Part shown: in pieces, positions 3,315-60,366 of the stretch | Numbering within the stretch: the first letter of the stretch is position 1 | How the letters are laid out: every line of letters begins with the position of its first letter | Virus record (IMG/VR): IMGVR_UViG_3300006754_000011 | Span: 1-64,000 of that record | DNA length: 64,000 nucleotides | From: a virus | Strand: one strand, 5' to 3' | Position numbers and translations under genes: made by a program | Notes under the pieces: generated by a model | The model's database searches: none | Told to the model about the DNA's origin: nothing | The model's input: only the letters and a program-made list of their open reading frames with translations

Positions 3315-4850
3315 ATGGCAGGAACCAGTATTTATTCGGTTTATCGCAGAACTGCACGTGCAGCTGCAAAACAACAAGTTGTTAAAAAAACTTCAACTAT
3401 TGATATTGATAAAGCACGTACCAATTTTGCATATTTTTGTGATGTTGTAGGAGATAAACCTCCTGCAGAACATATGGAATTATGGCATGAGCACCTGTAT
3501 ACTCATGAAGATAGTGAATGTTTAATTTCAATTGCGGGACCTAACGTTGATATTCTTGCTCCACGAGGCTCTGCTAAATCAACCGTACTTGGTTTATTTA
3601 CTGCATGGGCGATTGGGATACATGCTCTCCATCGCAAACCCCTAAAGATCCTCTATATTTCTTATACTGTTGATGTAGCTCGTCCTAAAAGTGCAGCAAT
3701 AAAACGAATTATTGAAGATAGTAAGATTTATAGAGAAATCTTTCCTACAGTAAAAATTGCTAAAGGAATTAATTCCAATGAATATTGGAGTATTGATTGG
3801 AAGTTCGCAGGAATAAGATCTACAGGTGAAGAAGAATTTAGTTTATGTTGTGCAGGATTAAAAGGTGCAGTGACTTCGAAACGTTCTCATCTTTGTATTA
3901 TTGATGACGCAATTAAATCTGCTGATGATATTAAAAATAGAGATATACGAGTAGCAATGGAGGATAACTGGAACTCAGTTATTGTCCCAACAATGTTTGA
4001 AGGTGGAAGAGCTATATGTCTTGGGACACGTTTTCGTCATGATGACATTCATCAGACAACTTTTATTCCTGATAATGATTGGATCCAGATTGTTCAATCT
4101 GCAGTAACACTAGATGAGCATGGAGATGAGAAATCTTATTGGCCAAAAATGTGGTCTTTAGATTATTTAAAAGATAGAAGAAGACAAGCACCCATTAGTT
4201 TTAGTTTTCAATATCAAAATCAAATTGTTAGAACTAGTGAGATGTCTATTTCACCAGATCTTATTATCAAAGGACAAATTCCTACTGAATTTGAATGTTT
4301 AGGAGTAGGAGTTGATTTATCTGCAGGAATACGTGAAAGAAATGATTATACAGCTTTTGTTATGGGTGGTCGTGTTGGCGACAAAATTTATATTATTGAT
4401 TGTAAACGTTTAAGGATTATGGGTAACGTCGAAAAATTAGAAGCCATTATGGAAATGATGTATGAATGGGGGGTTGTTCATAAAGACCATGATAGAAATA
4501 AAGATGTTTATTTTCCTACAGGAAGTACTGTTGATATTTGGTCAGAAGCTGTTGCATATCAAGCTTCTTTAGAAGCTGATTTTAAACGTATATGTCTTGA
4601 AGAACAAGGCCTGCACAATCTTTTATGGCATCCAGTAAAAGGTTTTCGTGGAGATAAAGTTGCACGTTTTAGAGGTATTATGGGATTATTCGAACGTCAT
4701 AAAATCCGCTTTAACAAGTATCGCAAATTCCAAGCTTTAACAGATGAAATTGTAAATTTTGGAGTTAGTTCCCATGATGACTGTGTAGATGCGTTGGTAT
4801 GGCTTTGCAATGGATTAATGTCTAGAGGAAAACTAGAGTTAGAGTATTGA
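3315..4850 (+). CDS. terL: Terminase large subunit
   Basis: The DNA-packaging ATPase and nuclease, 511 residues. The ATPase half has a Walker A-like APRGSAKST at 82-90 and a Walker B LCIIDDAI with the acidic pair near 197. The RNase H-like nuclease half has GVGVDLSAG (Asp near 334) and a C-terminal SHDDCVDALVW near 486-496, the expected acidic metal-binding residues. It should dock on the portal encoded downstream, cut concatemeric DNA and pump it into the head. The ATG at 3315 is preferred over the out-of-frame ATG at 3311. Confidence 0.93.
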   Translation: MAGTSIYSVYRRTARAAAKQQVVKKTSTIDIDKARTNFAYFCDVVGDKPPAEHMELWHEHLYTHEDSECLISIAGPNVDILAPRGSAKSTVLGLFTAWAIGIHALHRKPLKILYISYTVDVARPKSAAIKRIIEDSKIYREIFPTVKIAKGINSNEYWSIDWKFAGIRSTGEEEFSLCCAGLKGAVTSKRSHLCIIDDAIKSADDIKNRDIRVAMEDNWNSVIVPTMFEGGRAICLGTRFRHDDIHQTTFIPDNDWIQIVQSAVTLDEHGDEKSYWPKMWSLDYLKDRRRQAPISFSFQYQNQIVRTSEMSISPDLIIKGQIPTEFECLGVGVDLSAGIRERNDYTAFVMGGRVGDKIYIIDCKRLRIMGNVEKLEAIMEMMYEWGVVHKDHDRNKDVYFPTGSTVDIWSEAVAYQASLEADFKRICLEEQGLHNLLWHPVKGFRGDKVARFRGIMGLFERHKIRFNKYRKFQALTDEIVNFGVSSHDDCVDALVWLCNGLMSRGKLELEY

Positions 4851-4878
4851 CGCAATTAGACTATTAAAAGTACCCAAC

Positions 4879-5067
4879 ATGTCCTCTCATTTTTATTACG
4901 AAGGTATTGAACTTGAGCAAGATGCTTATGGTTCAGCCATCATCAATCTACCAGATGAATTATGTCATGATCTTGGACTCCGACCTGGTGAAAGGTTTGA
5001 AGTTGAAGCTGATGATGAATGTTTGAATTTCAAACGAATCGCTGCAGGTTATGTGGTTGAGTCATAA
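4879..5067 (+). CDS. AbrB/MazE-like swapped-hairpin protein
   Basis: A 62-residue protein. The stretch INLPDELCHDLGLRPGERFEV matches the AbrB/MazE/SpoVT fold, in which a 'Pxe...lgLkpGd.vev' strand-turn dimer binds DNA. No toxin partner lies beside it. It sits alone between large terminase and portal genes, about 20 nt from each. It could regulate the late operon or bind DNA during packaging; both ideas are inference. The family match is by eye. Confidence 0.65.
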   Translation: MSSHFYYEGIELEQDAYGSAIINLPDELCHDLGLRPGERFEVEADDECLNFKRIAAGYVVES

Positions 5068-5087
5068 TAGAAAAAAAGAAGTAACTG

Positions 5088-7358
5088 ATGAGCGTAACTA
5101 ATTCTGCTTTTAAATCAATGCTGGATGCAGCAATTAACCGTGACAGTACCGGAGGAGCTGACACGATGTTGATTAATGCTCATCTAGCCCAAATGAAAAT
5201 GTTTGGGATTAGACAGGGTGTTGAGTTTTATCCAGAGCAAGATAATTTCGGAACACAGCGTTTTGATTTTATTCAACAAGTTATTAAATTCAATCAATTA
5301 GATGCACGTCTCGATGCTATTTGGGATAAATTCCTCGCTTGGGGAAAAGGTTTATTCTATATTCGTCCAACAGAAAAAACTTATCGTATTTATTGGTTTG
5401 ATAAAGATTCTTACCGCAGTTATTATTCTCCTGAAGGTAACTTAGAAGAAGTTATTATTATCTATCCATATAAAGTTAAGGCTTCAAAAGGTTTTACCAA
5501 TACACAAGTAGGTATTGGAACTAATAAACGTTATATGCGTCTTCGTATCACAATTGACACGATTGAAGAAATGCATAGTGAGCAAGAACTTAGTTTCGAT
5601 ACACCTCAAGAATTTAGTACATTAAATAAAACAGAGACTATTAATACACTTCAATTTATTCCTTGTGTAGAAGTCTTTAATAATCCAGATGCTTTTGGAA
5701 CAGATGGACGAGGTGATTTTGATTGGATAGCCAATCAGATTGTTGCCCATGATGAGATGGTTAAAAATATTAGAGCAAATTTATCTTTCTTCGGAAATCC
5801 TACTTTACTTTCTTCTCGACCTAAGCAAGACATTGTTGAAAGCAACAATGATAATCCTCCACAAAGACCTAGTATTTCTAGCCAATCTGGATTTACTTCT
5901 GATCTCAGTATTCTTCAATCAACTTATAAGCAAGATCCTGTAACTCGAAATCCTGCAGGATATATAGGTAGCCCTGGTGGAGGTATGCGTGTACCTAGAG
6001 TTATTGCAAATTTAGAACCTACTGATCGTGTTGGTTTTATTACTCCTAATGCAGTTAGTACCGATCAAGCACGGTATGCAGAACAGTTGCGTTCAGAGAT
6101 AAGATTAGCTCTTGGTGGTATCGATGATCTTTCTGTTCAGAATGTAACAGCAACTGAAATTAAATCTGCATACGGACGTGTTAGCGCTACAGCTAAGAAA
6201 AAATGCTTGCAATTATATAACTATGGAATCTGTAAATGCTTCGAGTTAATGATATTCCAGGAAGAACAAATCTTCCGTAAGACAATGGCACAAGCCAGCG
6301 GAATTAAATATCCTGAAGCTCCTGAAGATGATTCACCTGAAGCATTAAATAAGTATGAGAAGCAGAAATTAAAATATGAAGATAAATTAGATGCTGCAAT
6401 TACTAAAGCTGAAGAGACAAAAGAGATTCCTGAAGGAGTGTTAGGGCTTGCACCAGATGGGGTTAGATCAGTTGCATGGAGATGGATGGGGCCTGTTTAT
6501 GAAGACACAGCACAAGATAAGCTCAATCAATCTATGTTTATAAGAAACCTACAAGAATTAGGGGTAGATAGTATAGAAGCACTGAAGTACTTATTCCCTT
6601 CTAAAACTGATGATGAGATAGCAGCAATGTTATCTGGTTTTCCGTTTAGAATGGTAGGTCAAGTACAAAGGGCATATTCCACATTTATTGATTTAATTAA
6701 TCAAGAAATGCGGACACCACATCCGCAGCAGCCGGACCTTCCGATGTCTGCAGATCCGAGACTCGATCTCACCCCATTTTTATATCGAACACTTGAAAGT
6801 TTACAAAAGGAAGTAACCTATGCCGGACGTTATCGCTCAGCCGACCCAATCGGCACCCCAGACATCCCCGACCCAGCCGAGCAATTACGCGGCGGGTCCC
6901 GTGGCAACAATAGCCTCACAGGCTCCACAGGTGGTGTCGACAGCCCCACAATGGGTGGCACCGCAGACAACCAGCGTAGCGCCAGCACCTCAAATGCAGG
7001 CCCAGATGGGGGCGGTTCAACCACAATACAGCCCTACTCAGTCTTACCCCCAGGCAGCCCCCTCGGTAGCACCGCAGGGACAGGACAATCCTTACAGGGA
7101 GGCGTTCAACAAAGTAGTGGGACTCCTGAGTTCACCAGTCCAGCTCCCCTTCCAGGGTCAACCATCAAGTCAGATCTCGGAAACCGTTCAGCCCAATTAC
7201 AGTTCCCCGCAAGCAACCCAGTACAACAACCAGGGTCAGCTGATCTCGCAGCCTGGGATAGGGAACAACCAGGATTACTACAACGGCTATTCCCAACCTT
7301 CACAGGAGATCAGCCAGGAACAGCTCCTCGCAAACGGAGTAAGTCCAGAAAGTCTTGA
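5088..7358 (+). CDS. Portal protein with C-terminal extension in an overlap
   Basis: A 756-residue protein placed between large terminase and scaffold/capsid genes, as portals normally are. Residues 1 to about 577 look like an ordinary globular portal (LAWGKGLFYIRPTEKTYRIY, later RMVGQVQRAYSTFIDLI). The last ~180 residues are low-complexity (Gly, Ser, Pro, Gln, Thr) and lie wholly over the start of the scaffold gene in another frame. T7-type portals are about 540 residues, so this tail is extra. It may have arisen by loss of an earlier stop near 6820. The portal forms the 12-mer vertex for packaging and tail attachment. Confidence 0.85.
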   Translation: MSVTNSAFKSMLDAAINRDSTGGADTMLINAHLAQMKMFGIRQGVEFYPEQDNFGTQRFDFIQQVIKFNQLDARLDAIWDKFLAWGKGLFYIRPTEKTYRIYWFDKDSYRSYYSPEGNLEEVIIIYPYKVKASKGFTNTQVGIGTNKRYMRLRITIDTIEEMHSEQELSFDTPQEFSTLNKTETINTLQFIPCVEVFNNPDAFGTDGRGDFDWIANQIVAHDEMVKNIRANLSFFGNPTLLSSRPKQDIVESNNDNPPQRPSISSQSGFTSDLSILQSTYKQDPVTRNPAGYIGSPGGGMRVPRVIANLEPTDRVGFITPNAVSTDQARYAEQLRSEIRLALGGIDDLSVQNVTATEIKSAYGRVSATAKKKCLQLYNYGICKCFELMIFQEEQIFRKTMAQASGIKYPEAPEDDSPEALNKYEKQKLKYEDKLDAAITKAEETKEIPEGVLGLAPDGVRSVAWRWMGPVYEDTAQDKLNQSMFIRNLQELGVDSIEALKYLFPSKTDDEIAAMLSGFPFRMVGQVQRAYSTFIDLINQEMRTPHPQQPDLPMSADPRLDLTPFLYRTLESLQKEVTYAGRYRSADPIGTPDIPDPAEQLRGGSRGNNSLTGSTGGVDSPTMGGTADNQRSASTSNAGPDGGGSTTIQPYSVLPPGSPLGSTAGTGQSLQGGVQQSSGTPEFTSPAPLPGSTIKSDLGNRSAQLQFPASNPVQQPGSADLAAWDREQPGLLQRLFPTFTGDQPGTAPRKRSKSRKS

Positions 7359-7839
7359 AGTCATTGACCATTTCGGTCCTGATGCTGCAGCTGTTCTTAA
7401 CAACTATTCTTGTCAAATAGAAGATCATCTTATTCATACAGACGGTCAACTACAAGAATCAGTCGGTTTACTTAAAGAGTTGTCTAATGAGCATAAAGCT
7501 TATGAAACAATTCTGACTAATCCTGATGTTTTAGCTGACTACACATGTGAATTCTTTGGACCTAATGGCCCTTATCCTGTACGTGAAGAGCAAGCTCCTA
7601 CTTATCAAGCTGTAGGACAAACTGGACAACCTGCACAGGCTCCACAACCACGTGCTGAGCAACAGCAGTTCCAACGTCCTCAAATGCCAGTTCCTCCACA
7701 GCCTCAAGCTCCTGAGAATTCTGGTGAATTCTGGAATAACTTTGGCAACTTAGCTGATCGTGATCCACAGAATGCATGGCGTTATTTGAATGCTCAGTCA
7801 CCTGAGACCTTCAGACAAAAGATGCTCGTAATGGAATAA
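6820..7839 (+). CDS. Putative capsid scaffolding protein
   Basis: A 339-residue protein between portal and capsid, where a scaffold is expected. The first ~180 residues are Pro/Gln/Ala/Ser-rich and disordered and share DNA with the portal tail for 539 nt. Residues ~185-260 are acidic and helical (SPESLEVIDHFGPDAAAVLN), then another Pro/Gln linker leads to a C-terminal helix near FWNNFGNLADRDPQNAWRYL, a typical capsid-binding end. Pro/Gln-rich scaffolds of this type occur in cyanophages. It should guide procapsid assembly and then leave. A terminator follows its stop. Confidence 0.75.
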   Translation: MPDVIAQPTQSAPQTSPTQPSNYAAGPVATIASQAPQVVSTAPQWVAPQTTSVAPAPQMQAQMGAVQPQYSPTQSYPQAAPSVAPQGQDNPYREAFNKVVGLLSSPVQLPFQGQPSSQISETVQPNYSSPQATQYNNQGQLISQPGIGNNQDYYNGYSQPSQEISQEQLLANGVSPESLEVIDHFGPDAAAVLNNYSCQIEDHLIHTDGQLQESVGLLKELSNEHKAYETILTNPDVLADYTCEFFGPNGPYPVREEQAPTYQAVGQTGQPAQAPQPRAEQQQFQRPQMPVPPQPQAPENSGEFWNNFGNLADRDPQNAWRYLNAQSPETFRQKMLVME

Positions 7840-7863
7840 AGATAAACTTAGTAAATGTAAAAT

Positions 7864-7892
7864 AAAGGGTAGTAATCAACTGCCCTTTTTTT
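7864..7892 (+). terminator. Intrinsic terminator after scaffold gene
   Basis: An AAGGGTAG / CTGCCCTT stem of 8 pairs including one T-G wobble and a 7-nt loop, followed by a run of T. It sits 25 nt after the scaffold stop and would end or attenuate the terminase-portal-scaffold transcript. Confidence 0.8.
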
Positions 7893-7907
7893 ATAGAATT
7901 AGATATT

Positions 7908-8351
7908 ATGTCAATTGCAAATACATTACGAATGGCAGGGCAAATAGGAGCTGGTTTAGGAGCCGTTGCAAAGGCTTATCCAGTACCAACAGCAATGTTA
8001 GGAGTTGGTCTAGGATCAATACCAGTAGCTGCTATGCATGGTGAAAAAGCAGCATATGCAGATCCTACTAGAAGTGGATTAGGAGGTACTCTTGGTTATG
8101 GTCTATTCGCTAATCCTATAGCAGGAGCTGCGTATGGATTAGGACATGAACGTGGAAGAAATAAAGAATCTGGCATTTTAGGTGATATGGTTAATCAAGT
8201 GATACCAGTAGCTACTACACCTCAAGATAAAGCTATAGAAGAATATTTAAGAAGGAGACAAGCTAGACAAGATACGATTAGAAGTCTAGTGAAAGCAGTG
8301 AATCCAATGCCTGGAGGATATAATCCTACAATTTACGGAGGTAATATTTAA
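7908..8351 (+). CDS. Gly/Ala-rich hydrophobic virion-type protein
   Basis: A 147-residue protein with Gly/Ala-rich hydrophobic stretches over residues ~8-45 and ~58-85 (MAGQIGAGLGAVAKAYPVP, TLGYGLFANPIAGAAYGLG) and a charged C-terminus. It resembles the genes at 1, 441 and 36987 in composition. It lies just after a terminator, before the capsid gene, and is tightly followed by the gene at 8354. A minor head or ejected protein is inferred; no catalytic motif is seen. Confidence 0.7.
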   Translation: MSIANTLRMAGQIGAGLGAVAKAYPVPTAMLGVGLGSIPVAAMHGEKAAYADPTRSGLGGTLGYGLFANPIAGAAYGLGHERGRNKESGILGDMVNQVIPVATTPQDKAIEEYLRRRQARQDTIRSLVKAVNPMPGGYNPTIYGGNI

Positions 8352-8353
8352 TT

Positions 8354-8704
8354 ATGGCTAACACTCCCGAAGCTGCTTTAGCAAAAGCACAAAAAGTAAA
8401 AGAATTATTTGCAGCTCAAGCTTTACAGAATGAGATTGCACAACAACAAGCAAGAGTTAATCCTGAAATAACTTCAGAAGCTATTACAATGCAGCCTCAA
8501 GTTATTCAACCTAATTCAAGAATAGGAACTGTACCTAGCAATGTTTGGTCTACAGGAAATTTAATTCCTGGTCCTTCAGGTGAATCAAAATTAGCTGCTA
8601 CATGGAATCCTTCAATGGATCCTGCAGGTATAACAAACCAACAACAAAATGCTTTGGGTTGGAATAACGTTCAAGTAGGTGCTCCTGATCCTTGGATTGG
8701 GTAA
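8354..8704 (+). CDS. Small probable virion protein
   Basis: A 116-residue polar protein beginning two nucleotides after the previous stop. The N-terminal ~45 residues are helical and Ala/Gln-rich (KAQKVKELFAAQALQNEIAQ); the rest is Pro/Asn/Gly-rich and probably unstructured. Its position next to the capsid gene suggests a minor head component. No family is recognised. Confidence 0.6.
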   Translation: MANTPEAALAKAQKVKELFAAQALQNEIAQQQARVNPEITSEAITMQPQVIQPNSRIGTVPSNVWSTGNLIPGPSGESKLAATWNPSMDPAGITNQQQNALGWNNVQVGAPDPWIG

Positions 8705-8736
8705 TAACTAATTAATAACCGACATAAGTAAGTCAC

Positions 8737-8745
8737 TGTTATAAT
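8737..8745 (+). promoter_or_regulatory. Extended -10 promoter for capsid gene
   Basis: TGTTATAAT matches the extended -10 consensus (TG, one base, TATAAT) exactly. No good -35 hexamer lies at the usual distance, which extended -10 promoters tolerate. It lies about 100 nt upstream of the capsid start and would give a leader containing the two hairpins at 8778-8816. Confidence 0.55.
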
Positions 8746-8777
8746 ATTTATTAATGGAGCTTTTTGTTCCAGGAGTG

Positions 8778-8816
8778 ATAACAGCTTGTCTGTTATTGAA
8801 GTTACTATAACTTCAA
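8778..8816 (+). promoter_or_regulatory. Two adjacent hairpins in capsid leader
   Basis: Two back-to-back perfect inverted repeats lie upstream of the capsid ATG. ATAACAG (8778-8784) pairs with CTGTTAT (8790-8796). TTGAAGTTA (8796-8804) pairs with TAACTTCAA (8808-8816) across a 3-nt loop; the two repeats share base 8796. Neither is followed by a T run, so they are not terminators. They may stabilise the mRNA or be an RNase processing site for this highly expressed gene. Confidence 0.6.
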
Positions 8817-8847
8817 CTATCAGCTAAACCTTTACGCTGAGTAGACA

Positions 8848-9999
8848 ATGTTTATTGATAACGATTTCCCAAAACTGCTGGGTGCGGAACTTTACCGTCC
8901 CCATCCAGCGTATATCGTGGAGATGGCGGTTGAACCCGTCGTAGTCCATGACTTTACAAAACAACCTGGTCAGACTGTTCAGCTTGATCGCTACAGATTC
9001 TTTGGCGCTCCTGGTACTAAAACCAGTCGTGAGCGTACTCAAGACCAGACGATAGGTACAGCTAATAGCCGTTCTATTGTTAAAGACAAAGTTCTGGTTT
9101 CTCTTCGTGAGTACACCGGACCTGCAGATCCAAACAATACGAACCTTCCTAGTACTTTCAAGATTGCTCGTGAGACCTTGATGACAGCGCAGCGTTTGCT
9201 GCTTGACACAGGGAACCTCAACATGTTCCACCAGTCAATAGGTAGTTTAACCCTTTTGGATGATTACCGTCGTTGGCGTGACCGTGTGTTCCTTGATGAA
9301 CTCTTCAAGGCCGAGTCTCGTGGTAAGTCATCTGATACTCAAGGTGGTTACTACTATCCTGAGAATCCTACAAAGGCTACTAGTACTTCGCTACCTGCAT
9401 ATACAGCAGCTCAGTATGCTTCTGAGCGCTTCAAATTTAATGTTAAAACTGACCTTCTAGAAGTTGTCAAAGGGCTTCGCAAGCGTAACGTTCCTGTCTT
9501 TGCCGACGGTTACTATCGTTGTATTGCCGATCCTTCTTTCATGAAGGACATGAGAGCCGACTCCGGCTTCCGTGAAGTTGCTCGCTATCCTGGTATGGGA
9601 CAGCCTAACCCTCTAATGGGTGCGCAGTCTCCTAACTCTGCCGTTTACGGTGGTGGCCAGTATGGACAAGCTCAGTTTGTTGGCGGTGAACCCGTTATGC
9701 CTTCAGGTTTCGTCTTTGAAGGTGTAAGGTTCTTCGAATCAACCAACATGCCTAGTAAAACCATTTCGGTCGATATTGGTGATGGTAACGGTGCACAGAC
9801 ACGTGACACCCCTCCCGCCCTCTTCTTCGGACCTCAGTCTGTTGGTGTCGGCATTGGTGGTCCTAACGCTCAAGTTTTAATCAATAACAATGATGACTTT
9901 TCACGATTCATTATTTTGATCTGGCAGCTTTATGCTGGCTTCGCAAACTTGAACAAAGACTTTACCACTGTTGGTTTCACCATCACTGAAACATATTGA
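8848..9999 (+). CDS. Major capsid protein (N4 gp56-like)
   Basis: A 383-residue protein after the scaffold gene, with more C/G-ending codons than its neighbours, as expected for the most abundant virion protein. The N-terminus (FIDNDFPKLLGAELY) and the segment KGLRKRNVPVFADGYYRCI followed by a conserved Pro and a 'MKDMRADSGF' helix resemble the N4-gp56 family of HK97-fold capsid proteins. It has its own promoter-like site and a structured leader. It would form the icosahedral shell. The capsid role is strong; the family name is a match by eye. Confidence 0.85.
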   Translation: MFIDNDFPKLLGAELYRPHPAYIVEMAVEPVVVHDFTKQPGQTVQLDRYRFFGAPGTKTSRERTQDQTIGTANSRSIVKDKVLVSLREYTGPADPNNTNLPSTFKIARETLMTAQRLLLDTGNLNMFHQSIGSLTLLDDYRRWRDRVFLDELFKAESRGKSSDTQGGYYYPENPTKATSTSLPAYTAAQYASERFKFNVKTDLLEVVKGLRKRNVPVFADGYYRCIADPSFMKDMRADSGFREVARYPGMGQPNPLMGAQSPNSAVYGGGQYGQAQFVGGEPVMPSGFVFEGVRFFESTNMPSKTISVDIGDGNGAQTRDTPPALFFGPQSVGVGIGGPNAQVLINNNDDFSRFIILIWQLYAGFANLNKDFTTVGFTITETY

Positions 10000-10019
10000 T
10001 AGGAGGTAATTAACTTAAA

Positions 10020-10835
10020 ATGGCAACTTACAAAGCTGATGCTGGGGCAATTCTTAATCCTGGCAACCAAATTAACCGTCTATCCTCCTATAACACTGAA
10101 GGAGTATATGGCTGGCCTGGATTAGAACTTTTTGAACTAATTGGTTATGCAAAGGTTTCAAACCTTTCTGCTGATAAAGGTTCTTATAAGAGTTTTGATC
10201 TAATAATTCCTTCTCCTGATCGTCGTCCTGGTGATCGTGTAAGGAATGATCGTACAAGCATGGTCGTTCAAGCAAGTGCTGCTCGTCCTGCATATATTTA
10301 TGGTGCTTCTATTGCTGTCGGTCAGGATATTCCTGCTGGTGGTCTAGCAACATATCCTGCGTCTCCTGTAACCGCTGGTCTCGGCGCTACTACAGGTGAG
10401 CTTCTACTATTAGGTCCAGCCAACAGCGCTGTACCTTATGGTGTACCAACTGCACAGCTCAATGGTTTAGCTGCTGCTTCTTCTTCACTTACTGCAGCTA
10501 GTTCTGCATTTGCAGAAGGTGCTGCTGATACAACCACAGGTGATGTACCTTTCTGGACAACTGTAACTTCTACCATTGCTCGCGCTGATGCTGCGAATTC
10601 AATGATGTATAAAGTGACAGCAGATACTACGATGAAAGTTTTCAACGTAGACGCTATTACTGATACTTCTGTATCTGGTGATGGTGTATACATCAGTCAG
10701 GCTGATTCAGACGCTGGACGCGCTGGATATATTCTTGGTCGTGTCAACTATCTACGTCCTGCAACCAATGTATCTTGGAATGATATTCAAGAATTCATTG
10801 ACTTTGCTTCTCAAGTAGGTGGAAACGACGAGTAA
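10020..10835 (+). CDS. Putative head decoration or minor capsid protein
   Basis: A 271-residue protein following the capsid gene, with a near-perfect Shine-Dalgarno AGGAGGT at 10001-10007, unusually strong for this genome, which implies high expression. The middle is Ala/Thr/Ser-rich and low-complexity (residues ~125-175). The C-terminal part has a folded look (GRAGYILGRVNYLRPATNV). It ends just before a terminator, so it and the capsid form one unit. Abundance signals and position suggest a decoration or second capsid protein; function is inferred. Confidence 0.6.
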   Translation: MATYKADAGAILNPGNQINRLSSYNTEGVYGWPGLELFELIGYAKVSNLSADKGSYKSFDLIIPSPDRRPGDRVRNDRTSMVVQASAARPAYIYGASIAVGQDIPAGGLATYPASPVTAGLGATTGELLLLGPANSAVPYGVPTAQLNGLAAASSSLTAASSAFAEGAADTTTGDVPFWTTVTSTIARADAANSMMYKVTADTTMKVFNVDAITDTSVSGDGVYISQADSDAGRAGYILGRVNYLRPATNVSWNDIQEFIDFASQVGGNDE

Positions 10836-58544: not shown

Positions 58545-59421
58545 TCATTTCATACGTATCAAAAATACGTTTTCCTGAATTAGCAATCTCTTCTAGAACG
58601 TCATCAGTTGCCGTATTGTGATGAACGATGTACTCAAAAGAACGCTTACCAATATCAATATTGTAATGAGAACAGACCAGATAAGCTACTGATTCTGCTT
58701 CAAGTTCTTTAATAGACCCTGGAGTATTAATACGATATTCGTGACCATTGTGCAGAATTGCGTGGCCAAGCTCATGAGACATAACACTAAACGTTGTGGC
58801 AGCATTAAGTCCTTTAACCAATTTGATTTTGCTTGCTGTTTGTTCATCACCTGTAAACCAACATTGACCTAATGCAGCTCCCATTTCTTCTTTAGAGACA
58901 TCTACTTGGACCGCAAGCTTACGTTTCGATGCTACTTGGCATAAACCATTAAAGAGGTCTGGAGATATGTCAGCTTCGATTTGATCCAGCATTGATGAAG
59001 TATCTGGTTCACTAATAGGTTCACCTTCTGTTTGATGGTGATCAAAGACATGAGCTGTCTTAAATCGGTAAGGCTTTCTAATAGGATTCCCTTCATCATT
59101 GAATAAAGGATTACCTGTATCATCAGTAACGGTATACATAACTGGTGCAAGGATATGGATACTTTTTTCGCCCTTTCTAACAGTGCGATTAAATTTAGTT
59201 TTCCATGTTTTAAAACCAGCAACGAGAGAACTAATTCCATAGCCTCGTCTTTGTTGTTCTAAAGCAATTAAGAAACGATTATTAAAACTGTAATGATGTA
59301 TCTTCCTCATTGTATTAAGAAAGCCTGCCCAATCTTTATCATTAAGAATTTGTTGGACACCTTCCTTTAAAGATCCCAAGAGTTCTTCTGGAATCTTTGA
59401 GAGTTTTGTTTCCGTAGTCAT
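58498..59421 (-). CDS. ArdC-like anti-restriction / zinc peptidase protein
   Basis: A 307-residue protein with two domains. The N-terminal ~110 residues (SFNNRFLIALEQQRRGYGIS, GFKTWKTKFNRTVRKGEKSI) match the ArdC ssDNA-binding domain. The C-terminal domain has a zincin site SHELGHAILHNG with ELEAESVAYLVCSH as third-ligand region. ArdC protects incoming DNA from restriction. This may guard the phage DNA on entry or degrade a host protein. Confidence 0.75.
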   Translation of the reverse strand: MTTETKLSKIPEELLGSLKEGVQQILNDKDWAGFLNTMRKIHHYSFNNRFLIALEQQRRGYGISSLVAGFKTWKTKFNRTVRKGEKSIHILAPVMYTVTDDTGNPLFNDEGNPIRKPYRFKTAHVFDHHQTEGEPISEPDTSSMLDQIEADISPDLFNGLCQVASKRKLAVQVDVSKEEMGAALGQCWFTGDEQTASKIKLVKGLNAATTFSVMSHELGHAILHNGHEYRINTPGSIKELEAESVAYLVCSHYNIDIGKRSFEYIVHHNTATDDVLEEIANSGKRIFDTYEMITNTVDSYLSKQNIE

Positions 59422-59829: not shown

Positions 59830-60056
59830 TAATTTCTATCCGATTCAGCTTTCTCTATTTTCGCATCTAGAAGACGTTGATCTCTATCAGAGATATCCGC
59901 TTCATGTAATGCATAAAGAAGTCTAGACTGAAGCTCATAACATTCAGCCCTCCAAACAAGACTGCCATTACGATTAGCTTGTTTAATTTGTTTTTCAGCT
60001 AAGTCGCTAAGTCTATAAAGTTCTGAGAAAGACATTTCAACATTAACTTTTTTCAT
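59829..60056 (-). CDS. Small helical protein
   Basis: A 75-residue protein (KVNVEMSFSELYRLSDLAEK, ESDRN at its end). It has TAATG overlaps at both ends. Its length fits one or two helix pairs. No family recognised. Confidence 0.58.
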   Translation of the reverse strand: MKKVNVEMSFSELYRLSDLAEKQIKQANRNGSLVWRAECYELQSRLLYALHEADISDRDQRLLDAKIEKAESDRN

Positions 60057-60214
60057 TAGCCTTTTTTAATAGTGGTGAGCTTTAAATACTTTTCATAAAG
60101 TTCTCCCATCTTTGGTTCAGTTTTAGATGATTTCCACATCTGGCGTAAGATTAGTTCGAAATCATCTATTGGAATGACTACTGAAAGAGAACCGTTCATG
60201 TAAGGTTCAGTCAT
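60056..60214 (-). CDS. Small hypothetical protein
   Basis: A 52-residue protein (NGSLSVVIPIDDFELILRQM). TAATG overlaps join it to both neighbours. No family recognised. Confidence 0.55.
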   Translation of the reverse strand: MTEPYMNGSLSVVIPIDDFELILRQMWKSSKTEPKMGELYEKYLKLTTIKKG

Positions 60215-60366
60215 TAAATTTCCTCAAATGTTTGATCGCCATCAATGGCATATTTATTTTCAAGTTCTCTCCTGAATTCTTCTTGTCTCTCTTCATAATG
60301 AGGATCAAGTTTATTCAGAAAATCTTTGAACATAAAATCAGTTATTGGTTTTCCGTTGAGAATCAT
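60214..60366 (-). CDS. Small hypothetical protein, internal ATG start chosen
   Basis: A 50-residue protein starting MILNGKPITDFMFKDFLN. The start at 60366 has AGGAG at 7-9 nt spacing. A longer frame to 60414 would overlap the upstream gene by 77 nt, so the shorter form is preferred. It carries a charged EERQEEFRRELENKYAID helix. No family recognised. Confidence 0.58.
   Translation of the reverse strand: MILNGKPITDFMFKDFLNKLDPHYEERQEEFRRELENKYAIDGDQTFEEI

Follow-up and report, generated by a model that had tools for sequence, protein, structure and literature searches.

A conserved out-of-phase overlap of the portal gene and a probable scaffolding gene in S-EIV1-like cyanophages

Overlapping head genes in described phages and in the window

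In phages T7 and P22, the portal and scaffolding proteins are encoded by separate genes with no overlap of the kind described here. In phage lambda C/Nu3, the scaffold reading is nested in an upstream head gene and begins by internal initiation in the same frame, so that the two proteins share sequence, unlike the pair studied here, whose frames differ. Two proteins are read from one stretch in different frames by internal initiation in Rz/Rz1 and phiX174 D/E, but these are lysis or ssDNA-phage genes and mostly shorter, whereas the present case concerns head genes of a dsDNA phage and ~500 nt. Annotation programs tend to remove long overlaps. To our knowledge, tailed dsDNA phages very rarely have long overlaps of the out-of-phase kind. 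Across 12,609 virus genomes, +1 overlaps have a median length of 14 nt with an interquartile range of 8–26 (PMC8903798); the overlap reported here has the same type of same-strand +1 shift but spans 539 nt. No report of an out-of-phase portal/scaffold overlap was found in the open-access literature searched.

Among 50,697 phage records, the sole relative of the window (the whole stretch analysed, 64,000 nt of a 74,205-base virus record) is Synechococcus phage S-EIV1 (KJ410740.1), with a portal 50% identical. S-EIV1 has the same gene order and, in the sequence of its own record, the same overlap (554 nt), its full second reading frame (ORF2) starting at 59287 (locus position 7727). The overlap is hidden in GenBank because the record starts the second gene only at 59863, past the portal stop, and lists its 134-aa product as hypothetical; the record is thus an instance of an overlap removed by annotation.

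In the window, the portal gene (5088–7358, + strand, 756 aa) adjoins the large terminase gene (3315–4850, + strand; phrog_38, E=3.5e-75; Pfam Terminase_6C) and lies 5′ of the major capsid protein gene (8848–9999, + strand; phrog_1357, E=1.6e-15). ORF2 (6820–7839, + strand), encoding a probable scaffolding protein of 339 aa and pI 4.3, is in the +1 frame relative to the portal, and the two ORFs have exactly 539 nt in common (6820–7358, + strand), confirming the same-strand overlap reported in the first-pass annotation. The shared stretch supplies 179 residues of the portal (G/S/P/T-rich) and 178 of ORF2 (Q/P/S/A-rich). As that annotation had also noted, it is more GC-rich than its flank (0.52–0.61, against mostly 0.31–0.40 on the 5′ side). 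This composition had been proposed to keep both frames free of stops, for which it is insufficient alone: with the portal-tail codons of the window randomised using core codon usage, the +1 frame stays open in 1.2% of trials, and in the same procedure on relatives in 15% on average. An open +1 frame alone is weak evidence for dual coding. Chance is ruled out because the arrangement is conserved in ~240 contigs of four clades and both frames are under selection (see below). Repeats were rejected as a cause of the overlap, none of at least 14 bp having been found.

The portal protein matches phrog_20475 'virion structural protein' (E=1.7e-208) over residues 8–750. Its AF2 model has a low mean pLDDT of 48; the top 34 Foldseek matches (E<=0.001) are all portal chains or portal complexes, and the best comparison of this low-confidence model, with VIA, gives Z 13.3 and rmsd 5.6 over 266 aligned residues. 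The predicted fold, common to the P22/T7-type portals, supports the identity of the gene product as a portal. The residues that match known portals are mostly 1–505, and pLDDT is below 50 at residues 540–729 and 736–756, in keeping with the earlier proposal that an ordinary portal core ends before the overlap. The C-terminal tail of ~179 aa (6819–7355, + strand), encoded only in the overlap, is predicted to be disordered and has a basic C-terminus (tail pI 9.2).

Conservation of the overlap and of the ORF2 start

The overlap is present in ~240 public contigs, a set whose members are related and in part duplicates of each other, falling into four clades (A–D) with portal cores 49–72% identical between clades and overlap lengths of 446–644 nt. 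All 130 loci with both ORFs complete in the first two sets of relatives place the ORF2 ATG at a constant offset from a portal motif, and the same offset holds in a further 59 loci, from the third clade (L166–L245) and from bacterial MAG bins (L162–L164), as well as in loci with a variant portal motif. A degenerate-pattern scan recovered a deep lineage, clade D (represented by L409), whose portal core is 48–49% identical to those of the other clades; here the overlap is found in 47/47 complete cases, at 446–536 nt, and ORF2 always starts with GTG, one codon later than the ATG of the other three clades. The portal tail is present in all complete relatives but one frameshifted contig. A portal stop near 6820, which the first-pass annotation had named among the observations that would speak against its reading, was looked for and found in none of the relatives.

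Two side observations concern the contig set. At L077, on the same contig as L366, portal and ORF2 are shortened together, leaving an overlap of 329 nt, a pattern that one indel within the overlap, or a misassembly there, could produce. The contigs of L162, L163, L164 and L165 are those of S-EIV1-like cyanophages and are assigned to MAGs labelled as Bacteroidetes, Puniceicoccaceae or 'bacterium'; they are probably misbinned phage DNA.

The start of ORF2 occupies one fixed site in every complete relative. In the window, the start signals (6807–6822, + strand) comprise an SD-like AAGGAAG (6807–6813), an in-frame TAA stop (6814–6816) and the ATG (6820–6822). An SD-like motif precedes the start in 51/52 representatives. 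The in-frame stop occupies position -6 in the window and in nine out of ten displayed genomes; in L044 and a few others it is farther upstream. The 12 clade D loci printed read AAGGAG, then TAA, then GTG. At the start site, TATGCAGGA is read by the portal as Tyr-Ala-Gly and contains ATG, and TACAGTGGA is read as Tyr-Ser-Gly and contains GTG; a portal Ser in place of Ala thus coincides with loss of the ATG and use of GTG. No sigma-70 promoter was found 5′ of ORF2, the region 6300–8900 holding one promoter-like site against 5.2 expected.

Motifs are conserved in both readings of the overlap. On the ORF2 side, NPYREAFNKVVGLLSSPVQ (7087–7143, + strand), predicted to form a helix at residues 91–103, retains its NP(Y/W)..AF core in clades A–D. 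On the portal side, PEFTSPAPLPGST (7125–7163, + strand), encoded partly by the same DNA as the ORF2 helix motif, retains a P.PG core in clades A–D. A second portal-tail motif, QPGLLQRLFP (7266–7295, + strand), is largely conserved in clades A and B, with Q727, P728, G729, L734, F735 and P736 invariant; it is recognisable in clade C and partial in clade D.

Purifying selection on both frames

The first-pass annotation had predicted constraint at synonymous sites of the overlap, and the check was borne out in the portal frame: among 63 disjoint pairs, divergence at portal four-fold sites falls from 0.417 in the core to 0.079 in the overlap, and 62/63 pairs show the lower value in the overlap. 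For ORF2, four-fold divergence in these pairs is 0.163 within the overlap, against 0.352 in the rest of the gene. Single changes were then grouped according to whether they alter one, both or neither of the proteins, with rates expressed per 1000 weighted opportunities; only changes inside the overlap were counted, so that regional rate effects were avoided. In the main set of 35 close pairs from clades A and B, with 36 events silent in both frames (SS), the rates were 51.4 (SS), 8.5 (SN, altering ORF2 only), 17.2 (NS, altering the portal only) and 1.6 (NN, altering both proteins). The resulting ratios, with confidence intervals below 1 in both frames, were 0.166 (0.114–0.241) for SN/SS in the ORF2 frame and 0.333 (0.242–0.494) for NS/SS in the portal frame, and remained at 0.12–0.17 and 0.25–0.35, respectively, when the transition weight was varied from 1 to 4. 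Clade C gave similar values (SS 76, SN 9.8, NS 24.8, NN 1.4; SN/SS 0.13, NS/SS 0.325). In clade D, where SS events were few (12), the rates were SS 53, SN 16.6, NS 23.4 and NN 3.6, with SN/SS 0.31 and NS/SS 0.44. The overlap is not simply a slow-evolving region, since its SS rate (51) is close to the synonymous rate of the non-overlapping, C-terminal part of ORF2 (55). Of 783 ORF2 four-fold sites at which a T would complete a stop codon in the portal frame, none carries T; the corresponding share is 17% at the other sites of the overlap and 47% beyond the portal stop. These substitution patterns show, at the level of sequence, purifying selection holding both frames of the overlap, ORF2 about twice as strongly as the portal.

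The same data bear on three other accounts of the locus. Following the S-EIV1 GenBank record (CDS 59863–60264), ORF2 could truly start 3′ of the portal stop as a 134-aa protein, the +1 frame of the overlap being a by-product left open by GC-rich, low-complexity portal-tail codons. Such a frame may indeed open by chance in some relatives, but ORF2-only changes are suppressed sixfold within the overlap, the start is fixed and preceded by an SD-like motif, the N-terminal motifs of ORF2 are conserved, and the GenBank start has no counterpart in the ORF2 protein of the window; we consider this account hardly credible. The converse, that the portal normally ends near residue 577–600, for instance by processing, and that the portal frame beyond is an unselected by-product of ORF2, draws on the predicted disorder of the tail and on its being the less constrained of the two frames. 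It is very improbable given NS/SS ratios of about one-third in the main set and in clade C and below one-half in clade D, the complete avoidance of portal stops at the 783 sites and the portal-tail motifs kept across clades, although the portal may still be cleaved after translation. ORF2 lies in the +1 frame of the portal, as would also be expected of a portal–ORF2 fusion made by programmed +1 frameshifting with no internal initiation. The in-frame stop, which in the window and most displayed genomes is at -6 and directly followed by the start region with its SD-like motif, makes such a fusion unlikely, and with clade D using GTG rather than ATG at the one fixed site we give it almost no credence.

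We conclude with high confidence that the 539 nt are a conserved out-of-phase overlap of two head-assembly genes in S-EIV1-like cyanophages, with both frames selected. The portal would be translated to its stop at 7358 and end in a disordered basic tail, while translation of ORF2 would begin inside the portal gene, at 6820, with a Shine-Dalgarno sequence and start codon of its own. The ORF2 product would be acidic, its N-terminal half disordered and rich in P/Q, its C-terminal half helical. Both proteins would come from a single mRNA, each with its own initiation. The scaffold of P22 touches the portal, and at the procapsid stage the C-terminal barrel has no ordered structure (PMC12005531). 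For the cyanophages, we postulate that the procapsid interior, towards which the portal C-termini of related phages point, holds both disordered segments, and that the two may touch each other.

Regarding origin, the first-pass annotation had read the locus as overprinting, perhaps after loss of a portal stop. The dual-coding overlap is upheld as genuine; the lost stop remains a conjecture. The overlap is already present in the deepest clade found (49% identical). No outgroup lacking it was found, all lineages found carrying both frames, and codon usage gave no signal as to which frame is older. The stronger constraint on ORF2 fits, as one possibility, a later-added portal tail. The overlap is old and well replicated, and the two morphogenesis genes that share it are probably essential. 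With a cultured isolate and sequences from hundreds of relatives available in the lineage, the locus is suited to direct tests of how dual-coded disordered proteins evolve.

The ORF2 product, the upstream constraint and neighbouring genes

The AF2 model of ORF2 is disordered in the N-terminal half except for the helix at 91–103, with a long helix at 189–233 and C-terminal helices at 302–338. No significant match to ORF2 was found in Pfam, PHROG or PDB, nor was sequence similarity detected between the portal and ORF2 and the portal and scaffolding proteins of the P22/T7 type. Scaffolds diverge fast in sequence, and strong acidity and a long helix are usual for them. From its acidity, its predicted helices and the position of its gene between portal and capsid genes, ORF2 is probably, by a modest balance of the evidence, the scaffolding protein. 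A less favoured but serious reading keeps the overlap and both translations as real and makes ORF2 an internal virion, ejection or minor head protein, with scaffolding performed by another gene or by a capsid domain. It can point to the missing family match and to two further ORFs (7908–8351 and 8354–8704) between ORF2 and the capsid gene; against it, ORF2 alone in that stretch has strong acidity and a predicted long helix, and the product of the ORF at 7908 is basic and G/A-rich.

A separate synonymous constraint is present in the portal gene 5′ of the ORF2 start (6550–6818, + strand). Over the ~90 portal codons (~270 nt) before ORF2, the synonymous rate is 19.9 per 1000 against 75 in the core, a 3–4-fold reduction that sets in abruptly near 6550 and is seen in clades A, B and C; the large terminase shows no such dip. 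The constraint is strongest at 6555–6589, a block that is deeply conserved and has no second copy in the window. Between clades A and B, the share of identical codons exceeds that of most of the core only in the first 15 constrained codons (0.61) and in one later bin (0.54). In clade D the constraint is absent except in the last 15 codons, so the overlap itself does not require it. A third ORF 5′ of 6820 was not found, there being stops in all five other frames, nor did Rfam give a match at E<=1 in 4800–9000. Taken singly, sequences of the stretch from clades A and B give better folds than their synonymous shuffles do (z about -2.4), in a comparison where one clade B control region reached z -1.9. 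Clade B is the only one with a conspicuous consensus structure (z -6.5), none standing out in A or C, so a common RNA structure across clades is not claimed. More speculatively, this ~270-nt element might control the amount of scaffold made per portal, with the portal tail and the scaffold front co-evolving as procapsid partners. This combined idea we hold to be rather unlikely; if true, the overlap would couple two interacting head proteins on the same DNA.

Directly after ORF2 lies a terminator-like hairpin with a T run (7864–7888, + strand), found in 24/26 clade A, 5/25 clade B and 7/24 clade C loci. Synonymous divergence of the capsid gene (8848–9999) is ~0.25 throughout, compared with ~0.43 for the large terminase in the same pairs, possibly reflecting codon bias for high expression. 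The comparison also corrects gene calls for a widespread cyanophage family. In addition to ORF2, the major capsid gene of S-EIV1 appears to be misannotated: GenBank gives a reverse-strand CDS (9224–9985) and a truncated forward CDS (9980–10450), whereas the sequence (KJ410740.1, L081 9299–10450) holds an intact forward capsid ORF of 383 aa, 69.5% identical to that of the window.
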